The notes below the pieces were generated by a model that ran no database searches, was not told the DNA's origin, and saw nothing but the letters and a program-made list of their open reading frames with translations. From IMG/VR virus record IMGVR_UViG_3300021961_000585, positions 1 to 25,157 of that record: DNA of 25,157 bases, one strand, 5' to 3'. This document shows, piece after piece, positions 343 through 23,456 of the stretch (positions within the stretch are counted from its first letter, which is position 1; every line of letters starts with the position of its first letter). This DNA is from a virus. Position numbers and translations under genes: made by a program.

Positions 343-1121
343 AACATTTAGTTATACCAGATTGCCAGGTTAAGCCCGGCATTTCTGTTAAGTACTTAGA
401 GAATATAGGTAAGTACATAGTAGAAAAACTACCAGATGTTATTGTCTGTATAGGTGACTTTGCTGATATGCCTAGCTTATCAAGCTATGATGTAGGTAAA
501 AAATCTTTTGAAGGACGTACATACAAAGCTGATATTAAAGCTGTACATAAAGGTATGGAAGCTTTACTAACACCTCTATGGAAGTTTCAAGAGAAACAAC
601 GTAAGCTTAAAAAGAAAGTATATAGTCCTCGTATGATACTTACATTAGGTAATCATGAAGACAGGATAGATAGAGCAGTAGAGAATGATCGTAAACTAGA
701 AGAACTAATTAGTATAAAGGATTTAAATTATGAACAATACGGCTGGGAAGTACATGATTTTCTTGACGTGGTTGTGGTCAATGGCATTGCTTACTCACAT
801 TACTTTGCAAGTGGTGTCATGGGAAGACCAGTCACATCAGCACAAGCTCTCATTACAAAGAAACACATGTCATGCTTCGCAGGGCATCAGCAAGGTAGAC
901 AGATTGCCTATGCTAGAAAAGCAGATGGCTCTGAAATCACTTGTATTATAGCAGGTAGTTGCTATGAACATGATGAATCTTATTTAAGTAGTCAATCTAA
1001 TAACCATTGGAGAGGCTTCTATGTACTTCATGAAGTAAACAATGGTAGCTTTGATGAGATGGCAGTGTCATTAAATTATGTAAATTCTAAATATGGGGTT
1101 GACAAACGTGCGAAAAGATGA
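339..1121 (+). CDS. Calcineurin-like metallophosphatase/phosphoesterase
   Basis: A 260-aa protein with the metallophosphoesterase signature in order: D8-C-Q10 near the N-terminus (many family members have D-x-H), G39-D40, G104-N105-H106-E-D, a histidine at about 154 and GHQQ with H183. These residues hold two divalent metals that hydrolyse phosphomonoesters or phosphodiesters. The substrate (nucleotide, protein or nucleic acid) cannot be read from sequence. ATG 339 overlaps the preceding stop. The 3' end contains a consensus promoter, and its TGA (1119-1121) forms part of the extended -10 element. The position among endonuclease, DUF3310 and reductase genes favours nucleic-acid or nucleotide metabolism. 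The fold is secure, the function is not. Confidence 0.85.
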   Translation: MKHLVIPDCQVKPGISVKYLENIGKYIVEKLPDVIVCIGDFADMPSLSSYDVGKKSFEGRTYKADIKAVHKGMEALLTPLWKFQEKQRKLKKKVYSPRMILTLGNHEDRIDRAVENDRKLEELISIKDLNYEQYGWEVHDFLDVVVVNGIAYSHYFASGVMGRPVTSAQALITKKHMSCFAGHQQGRQIAYARKADGSEITCIIAGSCYEHDESYLSSQSNNHWRGFYVLHEVNNGSFDEMAVSLNYVNSKYGVDKRAKR

Positions 1122-1127
1122 TATAAT
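1099..1127 (+). promoter_or_regulatory. Consensus sigma70 promoter with extended -10, driving the nrdJ/adenosyltransferase operon
   Basis: The -35 TTGACA (1099-1104) and -10 TATAAT (1122-1127) are both perfect consensus, 17 bases apart, with TG one base before the -10 (1119-1120). It lies inside the end of the metallophosphatase gene. The predicted +1 is base 1134, one base before ATG 1135 of the DUF3310 gene, so the transcript would be almost leaderless. All genes from 1135 to 4720 follow with overlapping or abutting ends, so this is the likely promoter for the whole set, read by host RNA polymerase. Confidence 0.8.
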
Positions 1128-1134
1128 AAAAGCA

Positions 1135-1338
1135 ATGGATAAACAAATAGGTGGTAACCATTACTCTAAATTTGTAATACAACCTACTGAGTTTATTTAT
1201 AAAAACAATATACCTTTTATAGAAGGGTGTGCAATTAAATATCTTTGTCGATGGAAAGATAAAGGTGGAGTACAGGACCTAGATAAAGCTATACACTTTA
1301 TTGAAATGCTAAAGGAGTTACACAATGACACAGTTTGA
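1135..1338 (+). CDS. DUF3310 family protein
   Basis: A 67-aa protein carrying the DUF3310 pattern: GGNHY at the N-terminus, QPTEFIYKNN, a central EGCAIKYLCRWKDKGG motif and a DLDKAIHFIEML helix. The domain is common in tailed phages and is also found in T7 gp1.7, a nucleotide kinase-type protein, so a link to nucleotide metabolism fits the downstream reductase; the exact activity here is unknown. I chose ATG 1135 because conserved sequence begins right after it and the promoter at 1099-1127 puts +1 at 1134. ATG 1093 or GTG 1108 would lengthen it but would lie inside the promoter and metallophosphatase end. No Shine-Dalgarno precedes 1135, consistent with leaderless initiation. The 39-aa gene starts inside its end at 1325. 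Confidence 0.82.
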   Translation: MDKQIGGNHYSKFVIQPTEFIYKNNIPFIEGCAIKYLCRWKDKGGVQDLDKAIHFIEMLKELHNDTV

Positions 1339-1444: not shown

Positions 1445-1638
1445 TGGCTCTAACGTTTGAAGAAGTATGTGAAAGACTTGCAGACTTAGACGAAGTTACT
1501 TTACTAGAGGTACTAAACATTTCTAGTAAAGAAATAATAGAAAAGTTTCAAGACAAGATAGAAGATAACTTAGAAGATCTAGAAAAAGATCTTGAACTAG
1601 ATAGAGAAGGATACGATTTTTATGGCGACATTACCTAG
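1444..1638 (+). CDS. Acidic helical small protein (64 aa) preceding nrdJ
   Basis: A 64-residue, strongly acidic protein, predicted almost entirely helical (two segments, about 4-34 and 35-53), without cysteine pairs for redox work. ATG 1444 overlaps the preceding TAA and has a GGAG site 6-7 bases upstream. Its end overlaps the nrdJ start by 17 bases and contains the AGAAGGA ribosome site for nrdJ, so translation of the two is probably coupled. An assembly or regulatory partner of the reductase is possible from position alone; I do not recognise the family. Confidence 0.7.
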   Translation: MALTFEEVCERLADLDEVTLLEVLNISSKEIIEKFQDKIEDNLEDLEKDLELDREGYDFYGDIT

Positions 1639-3499
1639 CATTTACCAACAAGTAATACATGCAAGTAGATATGCAAGATACATACCAGAAAAGAATAGAA
1701 GAGAAACATGGGACGAAACGGTTAGTCGATTAACTAACTATCTAGAAACTAAAGCTCCTGATCTTAAGAAAGATATAGCTGAATTAAAAGAATCAATACT
1801 GAATTTAGAAGTAATGCCATCCATGCGTTTAATGATGACAGCTGGAGAGGCATGTGAACGAGACAATATAGCAGCATATAACTGTAGTTATCTAGCTGTT
1901 AATAATAAAAGAGCTTTCTCAGAAGCTTTATATATTCTAATGAATGGTACAGGAGTAGGCTTTTCTTGTGAACGACAAGAGATTAATAGACTACCTGAAG
2001 TACCAGACAAAGTAGAATTATGTGATGATGTTATCGTAGTTGAAGATAGCAAGTTAGGCTGGGCTAAGGCATTTAAGAAACTTATCTCTCACCTTTACGA
2101 AGGTGATATACCTAACTTTGACTTTAGTAAAGTAAGACCTGCTGGTGCTAGACTTAAAACTTTTGGAGGTAGAGCATCAGGACCAGAACCTTTGAAACAA
2201 CTATTTGATTTTGTAATAGATACATTCAAGCAGGCTAGAGGTCGTAAGCTATCCTCAATTGAAGTGCATGACATCATGTGTATGATAGGACAGATCGTTG
2301 TGGTAGGTGGTGTCAGACGATCTGCTCTTATCTCTTTATCTAACTTGACTGATCGCAGAATGCGAGAAGCTAAAATGGGAGCATGGTATAATGACAATCC
2401 GCACAGAGGTCTTGCAAATAACTCCGTTGCCTACACAGAAACACCTGACAGTGAGACTTTCATGGAAGAATGGTTATCTCTGGTCAAGTCTAAATCAGGT
2501 GAGCGAGGAATCTTTAATAGAATTGCTTCACAAAATCAAGCCGCTAAGTGGGGACGAAGAGATCCAGATCTTAGCTACGGAACGAACCCTTGTTCAGAGA
2601 TTATCCTACGTGATAAACAATTCTGTAACCTTACAGAAGTTGTTGTCAGGTCAGGAGATACAGAAGAGTCACTAAAACGTAAGATTAGATTAGCAACATT
2701 GCTTGGTACAATCCAATCTACATTAATAGATTTCCAATTCTTATCATCAGAATGGAAGAAGAACACTGAGGAAGAAAGACTTCTTGGTGTATCGTTAACA
2801 GGTATTATGGATGCTAAAATAACTAGCAACCCTGATCCTAAAATGTTAGAAAGGTTACGAGATTATGCTAGAACAACCAACGAGAAATATGCTAAAGTGC
2901 TTAACATACCTGTTAGTGCTTCTATTACTTGTATCAAACCTAGTGGTACAGTATCTCAACTTGTCGATTCTGCGTCAGGTATACATGCAAGACATAATGA
3001 TTATTACATCAGAACAATTAGAATGGATAAGAAAGATCCCATCTACGAGTTCCTTAAAACGGCAGGGATCAAAGTAGAAGATGAACAGTTTCATCCAGAC
3101 TCTACAGCAGTGTTTAGCTTTCCAATTAAAGCACCTAATGGTGCGTTAACTAGAGATAGTAAGACTGCTTTAGAGCAATTAGATTTATGGTTAACCTATC
3201 AACGTCACTGGTGTGAACATAAACCATCAGTAACTATATCTGTTAAAGATAAAGAATGGGTTGAGGTTGGTGCATGGGTATGGAAATACTTTGATGAGAT
3301 TAGTGGAGTCTCCTTCTTACCACACTCAGATCATACATACCCACAAGCACCTTATCAAGATTGTACTGCAGAAGAATATAAAGCTTTAGATAAACTAACA
3401 CCTAAAGCATTAGACTGGACTACATTTATTGAAGTAGAAGATAACACTAAAGGTTCTCAGGAATTAGCATGTGCTTCTGGATTCTGTGAGGTAATTTAA
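1622..3499 (+). CDS. nrdJ: Adenosylcobalamin-dependent (class II) ribonucleoside-triphosphate reductase
   Basis: A 625-aa monomeric class II reductase, which converts ribonucleotides to deoxyribonucleotides using a thiyl radical made from adenosylcobalamin and needs no oxygen or small subunit. Visible landmarks: C88 (NCSY) and C335 (FCNL) as the reducing pair, N322-P-C324-S-E326 with the thiyl-radical cysteine and general-base glutamate, KPSGTVS at 439-445 in the phosphate-binding loop, and the C-terminal swinging pair C617-ASGF-C622. All key residues are intact. It is shorter than the Lactobacillus leichmannii enzyme (739 aa), which is usual for phage copies. AGAAGGA lies 10 bases before ATG 1622. 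The adenosyltransferase two genes downstream should supply its cofactor. No thioredoxin is visible, so reducing power probably comes from the host. Confidence 0.95.
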   Translation: MATLPSIYQQVIHASRYARYIPEKNRRETWDETVSRLTNYLETKAPDLKKDIAELKESILNLEVMPSMRLMMTAGEACERDNIAAYNCSYLAVNNKRAFSEALYILMNGTGVGFSCERQEINRLPEVPDKVELCDDVIVVEDSKLGWAKAFKKLISHLYEGDIPNFDFSKVRPAGARLKTFGGRASGPEPLKQLFDFVIDTFKQARGRKLSSIEVHDIMCMIGQIVVVGGVRRSALISLSNLTDRRMREAKMGAWYNDNPHRGLANNSVAYTETPDSETFMEEWLSLVKSKSGERGIFNRIASQNQAAKWGRRDPDLSYGTNPCSEIILRDKQFCNLTEVVVRSGDTEESLKRKIRLATLLGTIQSTLIDFQFLSSEWKKNTEEERLLGVSLTGIMDAKITSNPDPKMLERLRDYARTTNEKYAKVLNIPVSASITCIKPSGTVSQLVDSASGIHARHNDYYIRTIRMDKKDPIYEFLKTAGIKVEDEQFHPDSTAVFSFPIKAPNGALTRDSKTALEQLDLWLTYQRHWCEHKPSVTISVKDKEWVEVGAWVWKYFDEISGVSFLPHSDHTYPQAPYQDCTAEEYKALDKLTPKALDWTTFIEVEDNTKGSQELACASGFCEVI

Positions 3500-3636: not shown

Positions 3637-4013
3637 TGAAAGTGTGTGTTGTAGGTAGCAGAAGCCTTGATTCTGCAGATAAAGTACTACCTATTATAGA
3701 TAAGTTTATAAAAGATCTTCCTACGTCTTCTATTACTTTCTTAATAGGTAGTGCTAAAGGTGTTGATCCTCTATGTAAACATTATGCTCAATCTCATGGG
3801 CATGATGTTGTAGAGTTCTTACCTTATCATTTATTAGATAGCAGTGTAGAATTTGATAGTAAGTATTTCTTTATACGTACTAAACAAATGATAGACAATG
3901 CAGATAGAGTTCTAGCAATCTGGGATACCAAAAGCAAAGGCACTCACTATGCAATTAAATATACCCAGAAGCTAGAAAAACCAATCATGATTATAAAGGT
4001 ACTTCATGGCTAG
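3636..4013 (+). CDS. SLOG-superfamily (DUF2493/YspA-like) nucleotide-binding protein
   Basis: A 125-aa single-domain Rossmann-like protein. The N-terminal strand ends in VVGSR (residues 5-9), a phosphate-binding loop; then come IGSAKGVDPL (37-46), RTKQMIDNADRVLAIWD (81-97) and KGTHYAIKYTQKLEKPI (101-117), the usual layout of the DprA/YspA-like SLOG group. Proteins of this fold bind nucleotides or nucleotide derivatives, and some cleave N-glycosidic bonds. I see no residue that decides between ligand sensor and enzyme. ATG 3636 abuts the preceding stop, and the gene overlaps the adenosyltransferase by 8 bases. Between a reductase and a cofactor-making enzyme, a role in sensing or processing nucleotides is plausible but inferred. 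Confidence 0.8.
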   Translation: MKVCVVGSRSLDSADKVLPIIDKFIKDLPTSSITFLIGSAKGVDPLCKHYAQSHGHDVVEFLPYHLLDSSVEFDSKYFFIRTKQMIDNADRVLAIWDTKSKGTHYAIKYTQKLEKPIMIIKVLHG

Positions 4014-4533
4014 AATCTATACAAAGTCAGGTGACGATGGATCAACAGGTCTAGTTACTGGAAAACGAGTAAGTAAATCTTCTAACAGAATAGATACCAT
4101 AGGCTCATTAGATGAGCTTAATTCTTTTATAGGATTATCTTTAACAGAAGAAATACCTAAAATAATACGTGATGTATTACATGTAATACAACATAATCTA
4201 TTCGATATAGGTAGCGAAATAGCTACACCTAAAACAATTAGTACAAAAGAATCTCAAGTAATCTATTTAGAAAAAACTATAGATGATTTAACAAGCAGAC
4301 TAGACATACTTCGAGAGTTTATATTGCCTGGAGGCTGCAAAGCAGCAGCTCAAATACATGTAGCTAGAGCTATGTGTCGTAGAGCAGAGCGAAGCTGTCA
4401 TAAATTAACTGATATAAATCCTATTACATTACAATATCTAAATAGACTATCTGATTTACTCTTTACTATTGCTCGTTATCTTAACGCAGCGGCTGGTATA
4501 GACCACGTATACTGGCAAAAAAATGCTAGCTGA
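4006..4533 (+). CDS. ATP:cob(I)alamin adenosyltransferase, PduO type
   Basis: A full-length 175-aa member of the PduO/MMAB family, which transfers the 5'-deoxyadenosyl group of ATP to cob(I)alamin and makes adenosylcobalamin. The N-terminal ATP loop is TKSGDDGSTGL (6-16); next come GSLDELNSFIG (33-43), IQHNLFDIGSEIA (61-73), FILPGG (105-110), the arginine-rich HVARAMCRRAER helix (118-129) and YLNRLSDLLFTIARYLN (144-160). These are the family's most conserved blocks and all are present, so the enzyme is probably active as the usual trimer. It overlaps the SLOG gene by 8 bases and is cotranscribed with nrdJ, whose cofactor is its product. No other B12 gene is visible, so the phage would depend on cobalamin already in the cell. 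Confidence 0.93.
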   Translation: MARIYTKSGDDGSTGLVTGKRVSKSSNRIDTIGSLDELNSFIGLSLTEEIPKIIRDVLHVIQHNLFDIGSEIATPKTISTKESQVIYLEKTIDDLTSRLDILREFILPGGCKAAAQIHVARAMCRRAERSCHKLTDINPITLQYLNRLSDLLFTIARYLNAAAGIDHVYWQKNAS

Positions 4534-4720: not shown

Positions 4721-4875
4721 TCGGATACATTATAGCTCACTAACATATATGCACCTATGTTTGCAAAAGCATAACCAAAGTACATAAGCCCAAGGGCTAC
4801 ATTACCCTTCCAAAATTGTTCAAGACTTACAGCAAGATAGATTAATCCAACTGCAATTATTAAACCTACACTCAA
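4717..4875 (-). CDS. Small membrane protein (52 aa), candidate holin or lysis accessory
   Basis: A 52-codon reading frame starting at TTG 4875, which overlaps the TGA of the 428-aa gene; no in-frame ATG precedes the first membrane segment. It encodes two hydrophobic stretches (about 3-17 and 27-47) separated by a polar EQFWKGN turn, with glycine/alanine-rich faces and a polar C-terminus: a helical hairpin. It is the last gene of the virion operon, directly after a lysozyme-domain gene. That position and topology would suit a holin or pinholin, but this is inference. The TTG start and small size keep confidence moderate; the stop shares bases with the convergent gene's stop. Confidence 0.6.
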   Translation of the reverse strand: MSVGLIIAVGLIYLAVSLEQFWKGNVALGLMYFGYAFANIGAYMLVSYNVSD

Positions 4876-6158
4876 AGTTTTACTTTGCCTGCTTTAGAAG
4901 AATTATGTTTAGCTCTTCTATATCTAAATAGTTCTCCTTTTTCTGTACTATAAATAAGAGTACCATCTTCTAACTGTTCAACAGTTTTAATCTTAGCATC
5001 AGCATATTTATTATATAGTTCAGCTCTACGAACAGCTATACCTTTAGATGTTTGTCCTGATATATTAGCTGTATCTAATAGGTTAAAAAAGATTTGTTCA
5101 GGATTATTTTCTTTAATAGCTTTAGTAAAACTTGGGTATTTCGTCATACTAGGTCCTAAGTTATAAGCTTCGTGTATAATATCAGCTTTAACTTCATTAC
5201 TAAGTTTTGAGAAACCCTCTACATCTCTATCAAATCTTGTGTATAGCTGTGTTAAATAATTCTTAGAAGCTTGCTCTTCAGATAACTCAGGATTTTTAGC
5301 TAATCTTTTTTGACGTTCATACTCTTCTTCAGTAAGACCACGTTTAAGTGTTTTAGCTGCTCCTGTAGTATCACCTGACTCACCTTCATATTTATTTAAC
5401 TGCTCATAAGCAGTATTAACTACATATCTATCTTCTTCTCGCATAACTTTTTCTTCTCCACCTCTAGTTACAGGTTTTTCAGATTGTATTTGTGTTTCTT
5501 GTATAGGTTCTTCTTTAGATATAGGTTCTGGTATTGCAGAAATAGGTTCTCCATCTTGATAGTAAACACTTTTACCTTCTTCTAATCTTTTAGCAGCATG
5601 ATCTTCTGCTTTTCTAAATATAGATTTAAATCCTTCTTGATTCTCTTCTCTAAACTTCATACGTTTTTCTTCAGGAGCATCCATTAAAGCTTCATCTTGT
5701 TTAAGAAGATTTACTTCTGACTGTGTTAATCCAGGTACTAAAGAAGGAACTCTCATTTCTTTTACAGAACCATCAGGTTGTTTAACATTTAAATCAAAAG
5801 TAAATTCTGTCATTGTTTTACCTGTATCAGATTCAATAGGTCCTAAATATCCTGATGCAGATTTAACTGTCCCATCTTGTCTATACATATCATCAGGAAT
5901 TTTATCTTCAGCTTTAGGTATTGTAGTAACTGTAGGCATTTCAACAGCTGTAGAGTCTATCTTAGGCTGTGGCATATCAACTGCAGTTGAATCTATTTTA
6001 GGTTCAGGCATAGGAACAGGCTTAACTCCACCTTGACGAGCATAAACTTCTTCAACAGATTTAGCAGGAACTAGTAACTGTTGAGCAGCTTCAATAGGAT
6101 CTCGTCTTATCTCATCATCTTTACTATCCCACCAATTTTTAAATGGATTTGTTTCCAT
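4872..6158 (-). CDS. Virion-associated protein with C-terminal lysozyme-like domain (428 aa)
   Basis: A modular protein. Residues 1-49 are polar. Residues 50-73 hold two near-identical 12-residue repeats (MPEPKIDSTAVD and MPQPKIDSTAVE). Residues 95-200 form a domain seen in phage virion proteins (YLGPIESDTGKTMTE, then VPSLVPGLT, then HAAKRLEEGKS). Residues about 245-386 look like a GH24-type lysozyme, with KYEGESG (E258 the candidate catalytic acid), DIIHEAYNLG (326-335) and VRRAELYN (376-383). It could open the peptidoglycan during DNA entry, act in lysis, or both; no other endolysin is visible in the window. The start overlaps the preceding TAA (TAATG) with AGGAG upstream. The lysozyme call rests on a few motifs and is weaker than the phage-protein call. 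Confidence 0.68.
   Translation of the reverse strand: METNPFKNWWDSKDDEIRRDPIEAAQQLLVPAKSVEEVYARQGGVKPVPMPEPKIDSTAVDMPQPKIDSTAVEMPTVTTIPKAEDKIPDDMYRQDGTVKSASGYLGPIESDTGKTMTEFTFDLNVKQPDGSVKEMRVPSLVPGLTQSEVNLLKQDEALMDAPEEKRMKFREENQEGFKSIFRKAEDHAAKRLEEGKSVYYQDGEPISAIPEPISKEEPIQETQIQSEKPVTRGGEEKVMREEDRYVVNTAYEQLNKYEGESGDTTGAAKTLKRGLTEEEYERQKRLAKNPELSEEQASKNYLTQLYTRFDRDVEGFSKLSNEVKADIIHEAYNLGPSMTKYPSFTKAIKENNPEQIFFNLLDTANISGQTSKGIAVRRAELYNKYADAKIKTVEQLEDGTLIYSTEKGELFRYRRAKHNSSKAGKVKL
5940..6011 (-). repeat. Two 36-base in-frame tandem repeats
   Basis: Two adjacent 36-base units encode MPEPKIDSTAVD and MPQPKIDSTAVE inside the 428-aa protein. They differ at 9 of 36 bases but at only 2 of 12 residues, so most differences are synonymous and the peptide appears to be maintained. 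The proline-rich repeat may serve as a flexible linker or docking segment. Confidence 0.8.
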
Positions 6159-19714: not shown

Positions 19715-20695
19715 TTAGTAATTAGATGGATGAGTTAAAATTACACCCAATGTGTCAACACGTTGAGCACCAAAACCGAAGCGAGAAGTAACTTGATACT
19801 TGTCAGCTCTTTCTTCGTTGTCTCTCCAACCTTCTGTTTTAGGAGCACGTCTCCATGCATGCATAATTGGCTTGCATGAGTCGTCAGCTACGCACATAAA
19901 TACGTTAGCTTTGTCACCTACAGCTGCTGTTTCAGATGTTAAACCATATGAAGAAGCGTTGATAGCTTCAGTAGCAGCTAATGAAGGTAAGAAGTTAGAA
20001 GTGTAGATATCGAAACCAAAAATGTTACGTACAAATTTGTGGTCACGAGCAAAACCTTCTGTAATAATACCTTCAAACATTGGGTTGTTTGAAACGTTAA
20101 CTAAGTTTTGTAAGCTATTTAATGTAGCTTCAACAACTGGGTCAACAATAGCGATACGACCACCAGCAGGAACGTTAGCTTTATCAAATGCTAATTTCAT
20201 AGCAATGAAGTCTTCTAATGTTATAGTTCTTGCATTAGCTGCAGCAGAACCTACCCAACGGTGTGGTCTACCATTTACTAAGTTAAGGTTTGCACCTGTT
20301 TGAGCTGAGTTAACAGCTGTTAAAAACTTAGTTTCATGATGTTCACCAAGTGCACGTGTTGATTCCATAGCTCTCATAGCCATGAGTGTATCAACTTGTG
20401 AACCATCTTCACGTAAGTCATCACTAACTTTCCATGCATCACCAACATAGTCAGTAATTGTAAGTTGTAATGTACCTGTGTCGATAGGTGAATAGTTTAA
20501 TGGTGTGTCTTCAGCAGCATCTTGAAGAGTTACTGTACCTACTGTTTTAATGTTAAGAGTTGTACCTGAACCAAAGTCTGTTACGTCTCTCCACATACCT
20601 TCTGGTAGTAGATAGTCATGTAAATTTTCAAGAATAAACTGTGAGTACTGTTGTGCCTCAATAAAAGCACTGGTATTACTTGTTAATTGTGCCAT
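19715..20695 (-). CDS. Major capsid protein
   Basis: A 326-aa HK97-fold-type capsid protein. The N-terminus (TSNTSAFIEAQQYSQFILEN) is helical; then come VTDFGSGTTLNIKTVG and DAAEDTPLNYSPIDTGTLQLTI, resembling the E-loop and P-domain strands of podophage capsid proteins; DDLREDG and a long spine-like helix (TLMAMRAMESTRALGEHHETKFL) follow. The C-terminal half has the usual VDPVVEATL and RNIFGFDIYTSNFLP segments. It follows the scaffold gene and precedes the 162-aa head protein. AAGGAT lies about 7 bases before ATG 20695. Codons are shifted to CGT for Arg and AAC for Asn, unlike most genes in the window, as expected for the most abundant virion protein. Confidence 0.92.
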   Translation of the reverse strand: MAQLTSNTSAFIEAQQYSQFILENLHDYLLPEGMWRDVTDFGSGTTLNIKTVGTVTLQDAAEDTPLNYSPIDTGTLQLTITDYVGDAWKVSDDLREDGSQVDTLMAMRAMESTRALGEHHETKFLTAVNSAQTGANLNLVNGRPHRWVGSAAANARTITLEDFIAMKLAFDKANVPAGGRIAIVDPVVEATLNSLQNLVNVSNNPMFEGIITEGFARDHKFVRNIFGFDIYTSNFLPSLAATEAINASSYGLTSETAAVGDKANVFMCVADDSCKPIMHAWRRAPKTEGWRDNEERADKYQVTSRFGFGAQRVDTLGVILTHPSNY

Positions 20696-20709: not shown

Positions 20710-21414
20710 TTAAGATTGTTGTTTAATCTTTTCTCCAGCGGCTTTCCAAGCAGATACTAAATCTCTAGTAGAGGCTCCTCTAGGTACTCTAGCAGATACT
20801 TCTGCTTGAGGTTTATTCTTTGAGAACGCTTCTGTATTCACAGAACTTGTAGGTCTAGCTATATTAGTAGCTTTACTTTCAAATCCTGCTAGTTTTAGTA
20901 CTACATTAGGAGAACGTGTAGCAAGATCATTTAATTGTGAGGTAGTTAAGTTTAATTCTTTAGCTAAATTATTATAAACTACTTCTGCTTCACTACCATA
21001 CTGTTCAGTAAACTTATTCGCTACTGTTGCAGCATTTTGTTTAGCAGTTTGTTTAGCTTCATTTTGCTTAAGAGTTTGATTAACCATCTCCATAATAGTA
21101 TCTTGGTTAAGTCCAACCTCCTGAGTGGTGTTCTCTACAGGTCTGACTCCAGACTTTAATTCATCAAGAAGTTCTTGTGTAGTTTTACGTTTAGCAAGTT
21201 CCTCTTTCAATTGCGCCATCTCTTCCTCTAGGGTTTTAATGTGCTGTTGAGCATGAGGTACAGATCTTAACGCTTCTTCTGCACTAGCATACTTCTTTCC
21301 CTCGCCTACCAATGCTTGAGCTTCTGTCGGAATCTCAAAAGGTTTTACTTGGGTATCTTCTTGTTGAGTCTCTTGGGTAGTTGACTCAGATTGTACTGCT
21401 TGTTGTTCACTCAT
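20710..21414 (-). CDS. Capsid scaffolding protein
   Basis: A 234-aa, Glu/Gln-rich, helical protein without cysteine. The first 30 residues are low-complexity (TTQETQQEDTQ) and a clear coiled coil runs about 54-88 (HIKTLEEEMAQLKEELAKRK). Glutamine/alanine-rich helices follow, and a basic C-terminal helix (RGASTRDLVSAWKAAGEKIK) probably binds the capsid. This layout and the place between portal and major capsid are standard for podophage scaffold (T7 gp9-type). The start overlaps the stop of the 74-aa gene (ATGA). It is cotranscribed with the capsid from the promoter at 21642-21670. Confidence 0.83.
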   Translation of the reverse strand: MSEQQAVQSESTTQETQQEDTQVKPFEIPTEAQALVGEGKKYASAEEALRSVPHAQQHIKTLEEEMAQLKEELAKRKTTQELLDELKSGVRPVENTTQEVGLNQDTIMEMVNQTLKQNEAKQTAKQNAATVANKFTEQYGSEAEVVYNNLAKELNLTTSQLNDLATRSPNVVLKLAGFESKATNIARPTSSVNTEAFSKNKPQAEVSARVPRGASTRDLVSAWKAAGEKIKQQS

Positions 21415-21635
21415 TTATTTTCTCCTTGGTCAGGAATAAGATTATATAGTTTAGAGAAAGCTTTCTGAATACCTAACTGATAAGCTTGGTACTTAGACCA
21501 AGCAGGTTTATCAAAGTTATCATCATCTAAACACTTTCTTTGAGATAAACTTATTTGATCTTCTAAATAAGTTCTTATTTCTTTGAAGGCTTCAGCCTTT
21601 GAGAGGCTTTTGCCTTTATCTGATTTCAAATCCAT
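21411..21635 (-). CDS. Small conserved head-module protein (74 aa), unknown
   Basis: A 74-residue charged protein with helical pattern. DKPAWSKYQAYQLGIQKAFSKLYNLIPDQ (about 42-70) is a block I recall from short proteins located between portal and scaffold in marine podophages. It is the first gene after the strong promoter, and its ATG (21635) coincides with the predicted transcription start. No Shine-Dalgarno precedes it, so translation would be leaderless. Its stop overlaps the scaffold start (ATGA), which would couple scaffold synthesis to it. A role in assembly or in setting translation of the head cassette is possible; the biochemical function is unknown. Confidence 0.72.
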   Translation of the reverse strand: MDLKSDKGKSLSKAEAFKEIRTYLEDQISLSQRKCLDDDNFDKPAWSKYQAYQLGIQKAFSKLYNLIPDQGENK

Positions 21636-21641
21636 ATAAAT

Positions 21642-21670
21642 ATTATACCATAATTTTTATAAAAAGTCAA
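21642..21670 (-). promoter_or_regulatory. Strong sigma70 promoter with extended -10 for the head cassette
   Basis: Read on the - strand, TTGACT (21670-21665), a 17-base spacer and TATAAT (21647-21642), with TG one base before the -10. It occupies the only gap between portal and the 74-aa gene, right after the portal stop codon. The predicted +1 is 21635, the A of the next ATG. It would add transcripts for the 74-aa protein, scaffold, capsid and 162-aa head protein up to the terminator at 19176-19214. Confidence 0.83.
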
Positions 21671-21671
21671 G

Positions 21672-23456
21672 CTACATTGCTTGATCTAGTTGTTGCTTAA
21701 GCATTTCCTCCTCTAATGAAGGTTGCATAGACTGCTCTTGAAGGTCTTGTTGTATTTGCATCTTGAGTTTTTCTTGTTCTGCTCCTTCAAATAACATAGC
21801 ATTGTCTTTAATGAAGTCATACTTCTCAAAACCCATATACTCTTCGACCATATTAGCAAGTTTCTTAGCAGAAATATGAGGAGAAATAAGTTGTCCTATA
21901 GGACTATTAAATACACCTATCATATTTTGCATTAACTGTGCTCTAGCAGCATAATGTCTAGCACCTATAGGTCTAATCTTACCTTTAGCTGTTAGATCTT
22001 CTTTAGTAATAGATATAAAATCTACAACACCAAAGTCATCATCCATAACTTTAGCAAGTTCTGGAAGATTTAAATTACGTTTAGCTACTTCAAGCATAGT
22101 ATTTAAGATTGGTTCTAAAAATTCAATCTCAAATTGATTAATTTTATTTTGGAAAATACGTGAAGCAGCATTTTGTAGTTGTTGTACTTCAAATGCAGTC
22201 TTCTCTCCTGGAGTTCTAAAGCCCATAGCTTCTTTAGGAGCTCCTGCCATTTCTTCCATAATGTTTAATATAGCTGCAATCTCATTATTAACTTGAAAAG
22301 CAGCAGCATTAGGAGGCATAGCTTGAACATCTCCATCTTCTGGGATATGAATAGTTTGTTCTGGACCCCATTGGAATGGTTCTACATCACCTATAATTTT
22401 AAGTGGAGGGTGTATAGTAAGATCTAATGCATCTGCTTTAAGATTTTCTAAGTGATCTACTCTATATTGTAAACCTACTAAGTTATCTAATGGACCCATA
22501 GCATAAAGATTGTCAGGTCTTTTTCTCCAACCTACATGATGTTTAGTATCACGAGCTAAGTATGATGGATTATCTTTAATACGTAATACATAACTTCTAT
22601 CTAAAATAGTAATAATTTTATTTTTATGAAGTTTTCTTTCTACAGTATCATAGAAGTCTCCTTCAAATTCTAAGATTTCTGTATATCCTGATTGGTAATA
22701 CTCTTGTAAAGAACCAAAACCATCTACAATAAATGCTTCTGATTTATTAATATCTTCTATTTTAAATTGAGAAAGACTATTTCTAATTTCTAAAGCACGA
22801 GTTACAGCGCCTTCATCATAGTTAAGATCAGGACGTTCTTCTATCTCTGACATTAACTCTCCTACTGATTTAATGTATCTAGTAAACTTTGGAGCTTCTG
22901 TAAAGCTAGGAGCTGTAGGATTAAATACAATATCAAATGGAGATATACGTACAACTTTAGGACCATTATAAGTAGTAATTATATCTTGTGTTTCAGGATC
23001 TACATGTTGTTCATTAACATAAATAACATCTGCAAAACAATTACCATAGTCAATATAATCAGCAACTAATTGTGATATTGTTTCTCTAAATCCAGATTCT
23101 TTAATTTTAGTTTTAAGATAAGCTTCAATTGATTTACGTTTATCTGAATAGTTATCTTCTAATGTAGCACCTTCCCACTTCATCCATTCATCATTAGGAA
23201 ATAATGCATCCATATAATTTGCATGTAAGTTATCTCTAATCTGAGTTAACTTAGGTAAAGTTGTTTTATTTTTCCAAGGTAACTTAGAGTTAGAAGTAGT
23301 AGATGTATCAGTAGCAAATAAATAATTACGTAGTTCTCTCCACTCTGCTTCTTTATTTTGTCTTTGAATCCACCATTGATTATACAATGCAGCAAGATTT
23401 CTTGCCATTGTATCTGGATTAATTGCTTTTTCAAATTGTGCGACTTTACCTGCCAT
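21672..23456 (-). CDS. Portal (head-tail connector) protein
   Basis: A 594-aa podophage portal, the dodecameric ring for DNA packaging and exit. Recognisable parts are the N-terminal helical region with ALYNQWWIQRQNKEAEWREL (23-42), LTQIRDNLHANYMDALFPNDEW (70-91), GNCFADVIYV (138-147), the central MGPLDNLVGLQYRVDHLENL (320-339) followed by IHPPLKIIGDVE, and a glutamine/methionine-rich C-terminal tail (about 556-594). Length is close to T7 gp8 (536 aa) and similar proteins. AAGGAA lies about 7 bases before ATG 23456. It follows the terminase and precedes the head-cassette promoter, so portal expression is set separately from capsid expression. Confidence 0.9.
   Translation of the reverse strand: MAGKVAQFEKAINPDTMARNLAALYNQWWIQRQNKEAEWRELRNYLFATDTSTTSNSKLPWKNKTTLPKLTQIRDNLHANYMDALFPNDEWMKWEGATLEDNYSDKRKSIEAYLKTKIKESGFRETISQLVADYIDYGNCFADVIYVNEQHVDPETQDIITTYNGPKVVRISPFDIVFNPTAPSFTEAPKFTRYIKSVGELMSEIEERPDLNYDEGAVTRALEIRNSLSQFKIEDINKSEAFIVDGFGSLQEYYQSGYTEILEFEGDFYDTVERKLHKNKIITILDRSYVLRIKDNPSYLARDTKHHVGWRKRPDNLYAMGPLDNLVGLQYRVDHLENLKADALDLTIHPPLKIIGDVEPFQWGPEQTIHIPEDGDVQAMPPNAAAFQVNNEIAAILNIMEEMAGAPKEAMGFRTPGEKTAFEVQQLQNAASRIFQNKINQFEIEFLEPILNTMLEVAKRNLNLPELAKVMDDDFGVVDFISITKEDLTAKGKIRPIGARHYAARAQLMQNMIGVFNSPIGQLISPHISAKKLANMVEEYMGFEKYDFIKDNAMLFEGAEQEKLKMQIQQDLQEQSMQPSLEEEMLKQQLDQAM

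Follow-up and report, generated by a model that had tools for sequence, protein, structure and literature searches.

A conserved promoter behind the portal gene of a Zobellviridae phage, spaced for a predicted leaderless start of a 74-aa protein

In the viral DNA analysed here (a stretch of 25,157 nucleotides, referred to throughout as the window), the portal gene is followed on the minus strand by a sigma-70-type extended -10 promoter whose predicted transcription start falls on the A of the next gene's ATG, and the distance that brings the two together is kept in most related viruses. We consider it likely that this element is a host sigma-70-type promoter that gives a 74-aa gene a leaderless start. 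The minus-strand gene order is terminase, portal, 74-aa gene, scaffold and capsid, and the features that concern us are as follows.

21672..21674, minus strand: TAG stop of the portal gene, separated by one base from the -35 element
21665..21670, minus strand: -35 element TTGACT, with no change in its first five positions across the tree of relatives
21648..21664, minus strand: 17-base spacer with TGG at its end, the extended -10 TG lying at 21650-21649; TG unchanged on the tree
21642..21647, minus strand: -10 element TATAAT, one change on the tree
21636..21641, minus strand: six-base stretch ATTTAT between -10 and ATG, kept in length while its sequence drifts
21633..21635, minus strand: ATG, unchanged on the tree, with the transcription start predicted from geometry on its A
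21411..21635, minus strand: 74-aa small protein gene, phrog_8956 (unknown function), the first gene after the promoter
21422..21427, minus strand: Shine-Dalgarno AAGGAG of the scaffold gene, within the 3' end of the small gene, -8.3 kcal/mol, 7 bases before the scaffold ATG
21411..21414, minus strand: ATGA overlap of the small gene's stop and the scaffold start
20710..21414, minus strand: scaffold gene, syntenic with MEP402 gp44
19715..20695, minus strand: major capsid protein gene, phrog_267

Inspection of the portal-side promoter revealed the sequence hallmarks of the sigma-70 extended -10 class, namely a TTGACA-like -35 element, a spacing within 16-18 bases, TATAAT and the upstream TG. Such promoters start transcription about 7 bases after the -10 element, with a purine preferred, which would set +1 on the A of ATG 21635. 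The original prediction had claimed both the TTGACT-17-TATAAT promoter with its TG after the portal stop and a +1 on this A; the promoter is indeed there, one base past the stop, and the geometry that predicts the +1 is borne out and strongly retained in relatives. The core motif TTGACN-17-TATAAT is found at two places in the window, where 0.2 would be expected, and the full pattern, with TG and an ATG at +1, occurs once in the window and in none of 100 shuffles. A terminator-promoter fusion, suggested by a hairpin at 21684-21667 that overlaps the -35 element, was rejected, as 36 distinct junctions fold without a shared structure (mean z -0.76).

The window is a marine Zobellviridae phage near the Methylophilales (OM43) phages MEP401 and MEP402, which infect the OM43-clade strain FZCC0133; it has the common portal, scaffold and capsid order of MEP401-type Zobellviridae together with high portal identity (74% to MEP402 and 73% to MEP401). 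We compared the junction behind the portal gene in 82 sequences, comprising the window, 78 related virus contigs and three annotated genomes. At 79 of the 82 there is a promoter of this type; two of the other three are contigs that end there, and in the third, L076, the portal is fused to the small gene. The distance from -10 to ATG is exactly 6 bases at 70 of the 79 orthologous junctions (35 of 39 distinct ones), indicating that the pattern is far more than chance, and all 35 distinct spacer sequences are 17 bases long. The six bases before the ATG take ten distinct forms, nine of which end in T, as fits a pyrimidine at -1 and an A at +1. On a portal tree of 69 rows, TTGAC, TG and ATG undergo no change, TATAAT one and the -10-to-ATG distance four; on the same tree 15 changes fall on the gap from the portal stop to the -35 element, and as many as 19 on a single spacer column. 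As read from this tree, the promoter parts and their distance to the start codon appear to be held while their surroundings drift. Deviant distances were found in L040-L043 (12 bases), L050 and L051 (7) and ctOsX528 (9), and in L069 and L070 an insertion after the portal leaves a leader of about 80 bases between promoter and small gene, where the ATG is preceded by no more than a distant AAGG. These exceptions indicate that the leaderless geometry is not indispensable.

The small protein is conserved from its first codon onward, with dN/dS of about 0.1-0.34 in the comparisons where it is computable; judged by these substitution patterns, the 74-aa protein is under purifying selection and its gene is real. 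Proteins from the equivalent position in Pseudomonas phage PA11 and Salinivibrio phage CW02 align with the small protein. The PA11 counterpart of the gene overlaps the stop codon of portal, and between this counterpart and scaffold lies an AT-rich gap. Insertion of a promoter before the small gene in the MEP lineage, a history that these arrangements may suggest, would leave the gene leaderless. A low-confidence structure model (mean pLDDT 69) predicts mainly two long helices. In L076 (8900-9250), the portal frame runs on through the C-terminal half of the small protein, with the promoter and the N-terminal half absent; this joining is either a natural fusion or an assembly error.

Examination of ribosome-binding signals shows that anti-Shine-Dalgarno pairing upstream of the 74-aa gene reaches -2.9 kcal/mol, against a median of -5.1 for genes of the window, confirming the claim that ATG 21635 has no Shine-Dalgarno before it. 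Its start codon is AUG, rather than GUG or UUG, and this ATG is unchanged on the tree. Pairing of -4 kcal/mol or better precedes 73% of window genes, 80% of MEP402 genes and about 16% of random positions. The ATGA junction had also been expected to pass ribosomes on to scaffold and capsid. The overlap itself is real in the window, but reliance on it is unsupported: the scaffold gene has its own AAGGAG, and the MEP401 annotation places scaffold 16 bases beyond the small gene. The capsid gene likewise has a Shine-Dalgarno, AAGGA, and thus the remainder of the transcript would be independent of the leaderless start.

The window's second promoter of this design lies on the opposite strand.

1099..1127, plus strand: companion promoter TTGACA-17-TATAAT, overlapping the 3' end of a phosphoesterase gene
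1135..1338, plus strand: DUF3310 gene, its ATG 7 bases after the companion -10

Upstream of the DUF3310 gene, anti-Shine-Dalgarno pairing reaches -2.8 kcal/mol. In MEP401 and MEP402 both promoter sites are present, with the ATG exactly 6 bases after the -10 element at each. The 1099-type promoter is kept in other close relatives as well, where the first ATG lies 0, 1 or 3 bases after the -10 element or is missing, so that distances at the DUF3310 site run overall through 0, 1, 3, 6 and 7 bases. An ATG at 0, 1 or 3 bases implies that the expected RNA would start past the AUG. The idea of two promoters of one design consequently stands in part: both are real and the one at 1099 is conserved, but its ATG lies at 7 bases and wanders in relatives, leaving only the portal-side promoter in support of a fixed leaderless geometry. 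In L336, L337 and L338, no ATG of the DUF3310 frame follows closely behind the promoter, and the start of that frame may fall within the phosphoesterase gene.

On the reading we favour, host RNA polymerase would recognize a strong extended -10 promoter set in the tight gap between portal and the next gene, transcription would begin at the A of ATG 21635 to yield a leaderless mRNA, and the first codon would be translated through direct, 70S-type binding of ribosomes to the 5'-terminal AUG. A single transcript would then continue through scaffold and capsid, with their own Shine-Dalgarno sequences, such that the promoter would act as an internal booster for head genes and the leaderless start would serve only the 74-aa protein. 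Promoter activity, the exact start base, 70S-type initiation and the booster role are steps that we infer from the pattern and its conservation. The start could also lie a base or two further downstream, so that the RNA would lack an intact AUG, and read-through transcripts from upstream could add to the supply of the 74-aa protein. This last point leads to a different and, in our judgement, unlikely account, in which a genuine promoter mainly drives scaffold and capsid, its RNA perhaps starting just past the A of the ATG, while the small protein comes mainly from read-through portal transcripts on which ribosomes, having completed portal, restart at the ATG some 37 bases on. The short gap to the portal stop fits this account, as does the overlap of the small gene with that stop in PA11, which is consistent with coupling, and relatives at the DUF3310 site tolerate ATGs that the promoter's transcript would miss. 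A restart of this kind would, however, have to use an ATG with no Shine-Dalgarno before it; moreover, the distance to the portal stop varies freely and that to the -10 element does not, the opposite of the selection expected from portal coupling.

The original prediction went further and saw in the leaderless starts a deliberate adaptation, by which phage proteins would be made while host initiation is altered. Initiation factors do affect leaderless translation, and these factors, together with bS1, reportedly become phosphorylated as a result of T7 infection (PMC9031893). The idea nevertheless fares poorly against the genes themselves, for about three quarters of those in the window and 80% of those in MEP402, scaffold and capsid included, have Shine-Dalgarno-like sequences, and the geometry at the DUF3310 site is not conserved. 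With most genes using such sequences, nothing points to altered host ribosomes; we know of no such initiation change in this host, and we regard this adaptation as improbable. The cause is more likely compact gene packing than a stress response or altered ribosomes. An argument that the meeting of promoter and ATG is accidental, or that the frame is not a gene, comes from consensus-promoter scans of the region, in which matches are overall no commoner than in shuffles. Retention of promoter, distance and ATG across the tree, purifying selection on the small protein and homologues at the same place in other Zobellviridae all speak against it, and this reading, which we give practically no weight, is already contradicted by the conservation seen in the alignments.

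Scanning viral contigs for the full pattern returned at least 126 distinct matches. Among the matches listed, 83 of the 126 open an ORF of at least 60 codons, as compared with 16.5% of random ATGs, and in 86% of those 83 a pyrimidine precedes the ATG, as expected if the A is the transcription start. Ten of the 83, set against PHROGs, include DNA polymerase, thymidylate synthase, NAD-dependent ligase, exonucleases and UvsY, and several of these matches begin near the first residue of the profile. Scans without the ATG requirement gave, among the matches listed, 271 promoters, 176 of them with an ORF start within 80 bases. Within the same listed matches, ORF starts peak 6-8 bases after the -10 element (16 cases, or 5.3 per offset, against 1.5 per offset at 0-5 and 0.7 at 9-18), with a second, broad peak at 19-40 bases in which 75% have a Shine-Dalgarno. 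About 9% (16 of 176) of the strong, ORF-preceding promoters listed thus have their ATG at 6-8 bases, the count at offset 6 being if anything low, since about 40 further stretches of each scan fall outside these matches and some may carry older locus ids. A count that leaves out the contigs found by the ATG-selected scan loses the 6-base cases by design and does not enter this estimate. When the peak is compared with neighbouring offsets under a Poisson model, the value obtained is about 1e-7, which overstates independence, given that only nearly identical related contigs were removed. In L110, L112, L182, L207 and other environmental contigs, the ATG of T4-like DNA polymerase and further replication genes follows an extended -10 consensus promoter at a distance of exactly 6 bases. 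That a leaderless DNA polymerase start is common to isolate T4-like phages was considered and rejected: the gene is Shine-Dalgarno-led in Melnitz, and the six cyanophage records examined have no such promoter before theirs.

Hosts give a different picture. The full pattern is present in none of 150 Methylophilaceae genomes, and across 41 host-family genomes TGNTATAAT-6-ATGR has no excess over a 12-base spacing (14 vs 16 matches), with reversed-pattern controls at a similar level. We therefore reject the idea that the host family simply uses this geometry, since the sampled genomes show no excess of it, although host consensus promoters are few. We see about an even chance that environmental phages regularly use leaderless starts as a second way of expressing genes, at roughly one in ten near-consensus promoters, including those of T4-like DNA polymerase, UvsY and NAD-dependent ligase, and that this would be a trait of the phages that their hosts do not share.

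Several known systems bear a likeness to this arrangement. Lambda cI is transcribed from PRM, a host sigma-70 promoter under an activator, with its start codon as the first codon of the RNA. The window's gene resembles it in promoter class, predicted leading AUG and lack of a Shine-Dalgarno, and cI has been named as naturally leaderless (PMC4965119). Unlike cI, a lysogeny regulator, the window promoter heads head genes, is near-consensus and has a geometry conserved across many phages; we see no sign of lysogeny genes in the window. In Deinococcus-Thermus, -10 motifs a few bases before ORFs yield leaderless mRNA (PMC12340547), but as a common cellular mode with no -35 element, whereas the phage has a full -35 and extended -10 and the sampled host-family genomes show no excess. 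E. coli has 5'-terminal AUG ORFs upstream of Shine-Dalgarno-led genes on one message (PMC4965119), although in the window phage the first ORF is a conserved 74-aa phage protein, and initiation at leaderless AUGs by 70S ribosomes is established (PMC9031893). MEP401 and MEP402 share the gene order and both promoters with the ATG 6 bases after the -10 element but differ from the window at the level of 74% portal identity; the main text of their description contains no mention or analysis of promoters (PMC10580990). According to the AR9 paper (PMC5312081), phages often have leaderless transcripts, a statement for which it cites one E. coli study. In the open-access literature we found no lytic phage reported to have a conserved leaderless start at its head genes.

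Known leaderless phage messages are scattered cases, whereas here many phages of abundant marine bacteria keep the spacing of one such predicted start, and the survey suggests a distinct peak of leaderless-type starts across viral contigs. Whether phages use the leaderless route for specific genes is now testable; the geometry can serve as a rule when start sites in phage annotation are corrected, and it supplies natural promoters with which 70S initiation can be studied outside lambda.

Elsewhere in the window, a cobalamin adenosyltransferase gene (4006-4533) lies downstream of a B12-dependent ribonucleotide reductase gene (1622-3499); no adenosyltransferase is annotated in MEP401 or MEP402. 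A 428-aa protein encoded on the minus strand (4872-6158) has a weak, sub-threshold match to phage lysozyme. Between two structural genes, at 19208-19191 on the minus strand, lies a GC-rich, terminator-like hairpin with a T-rich tail.
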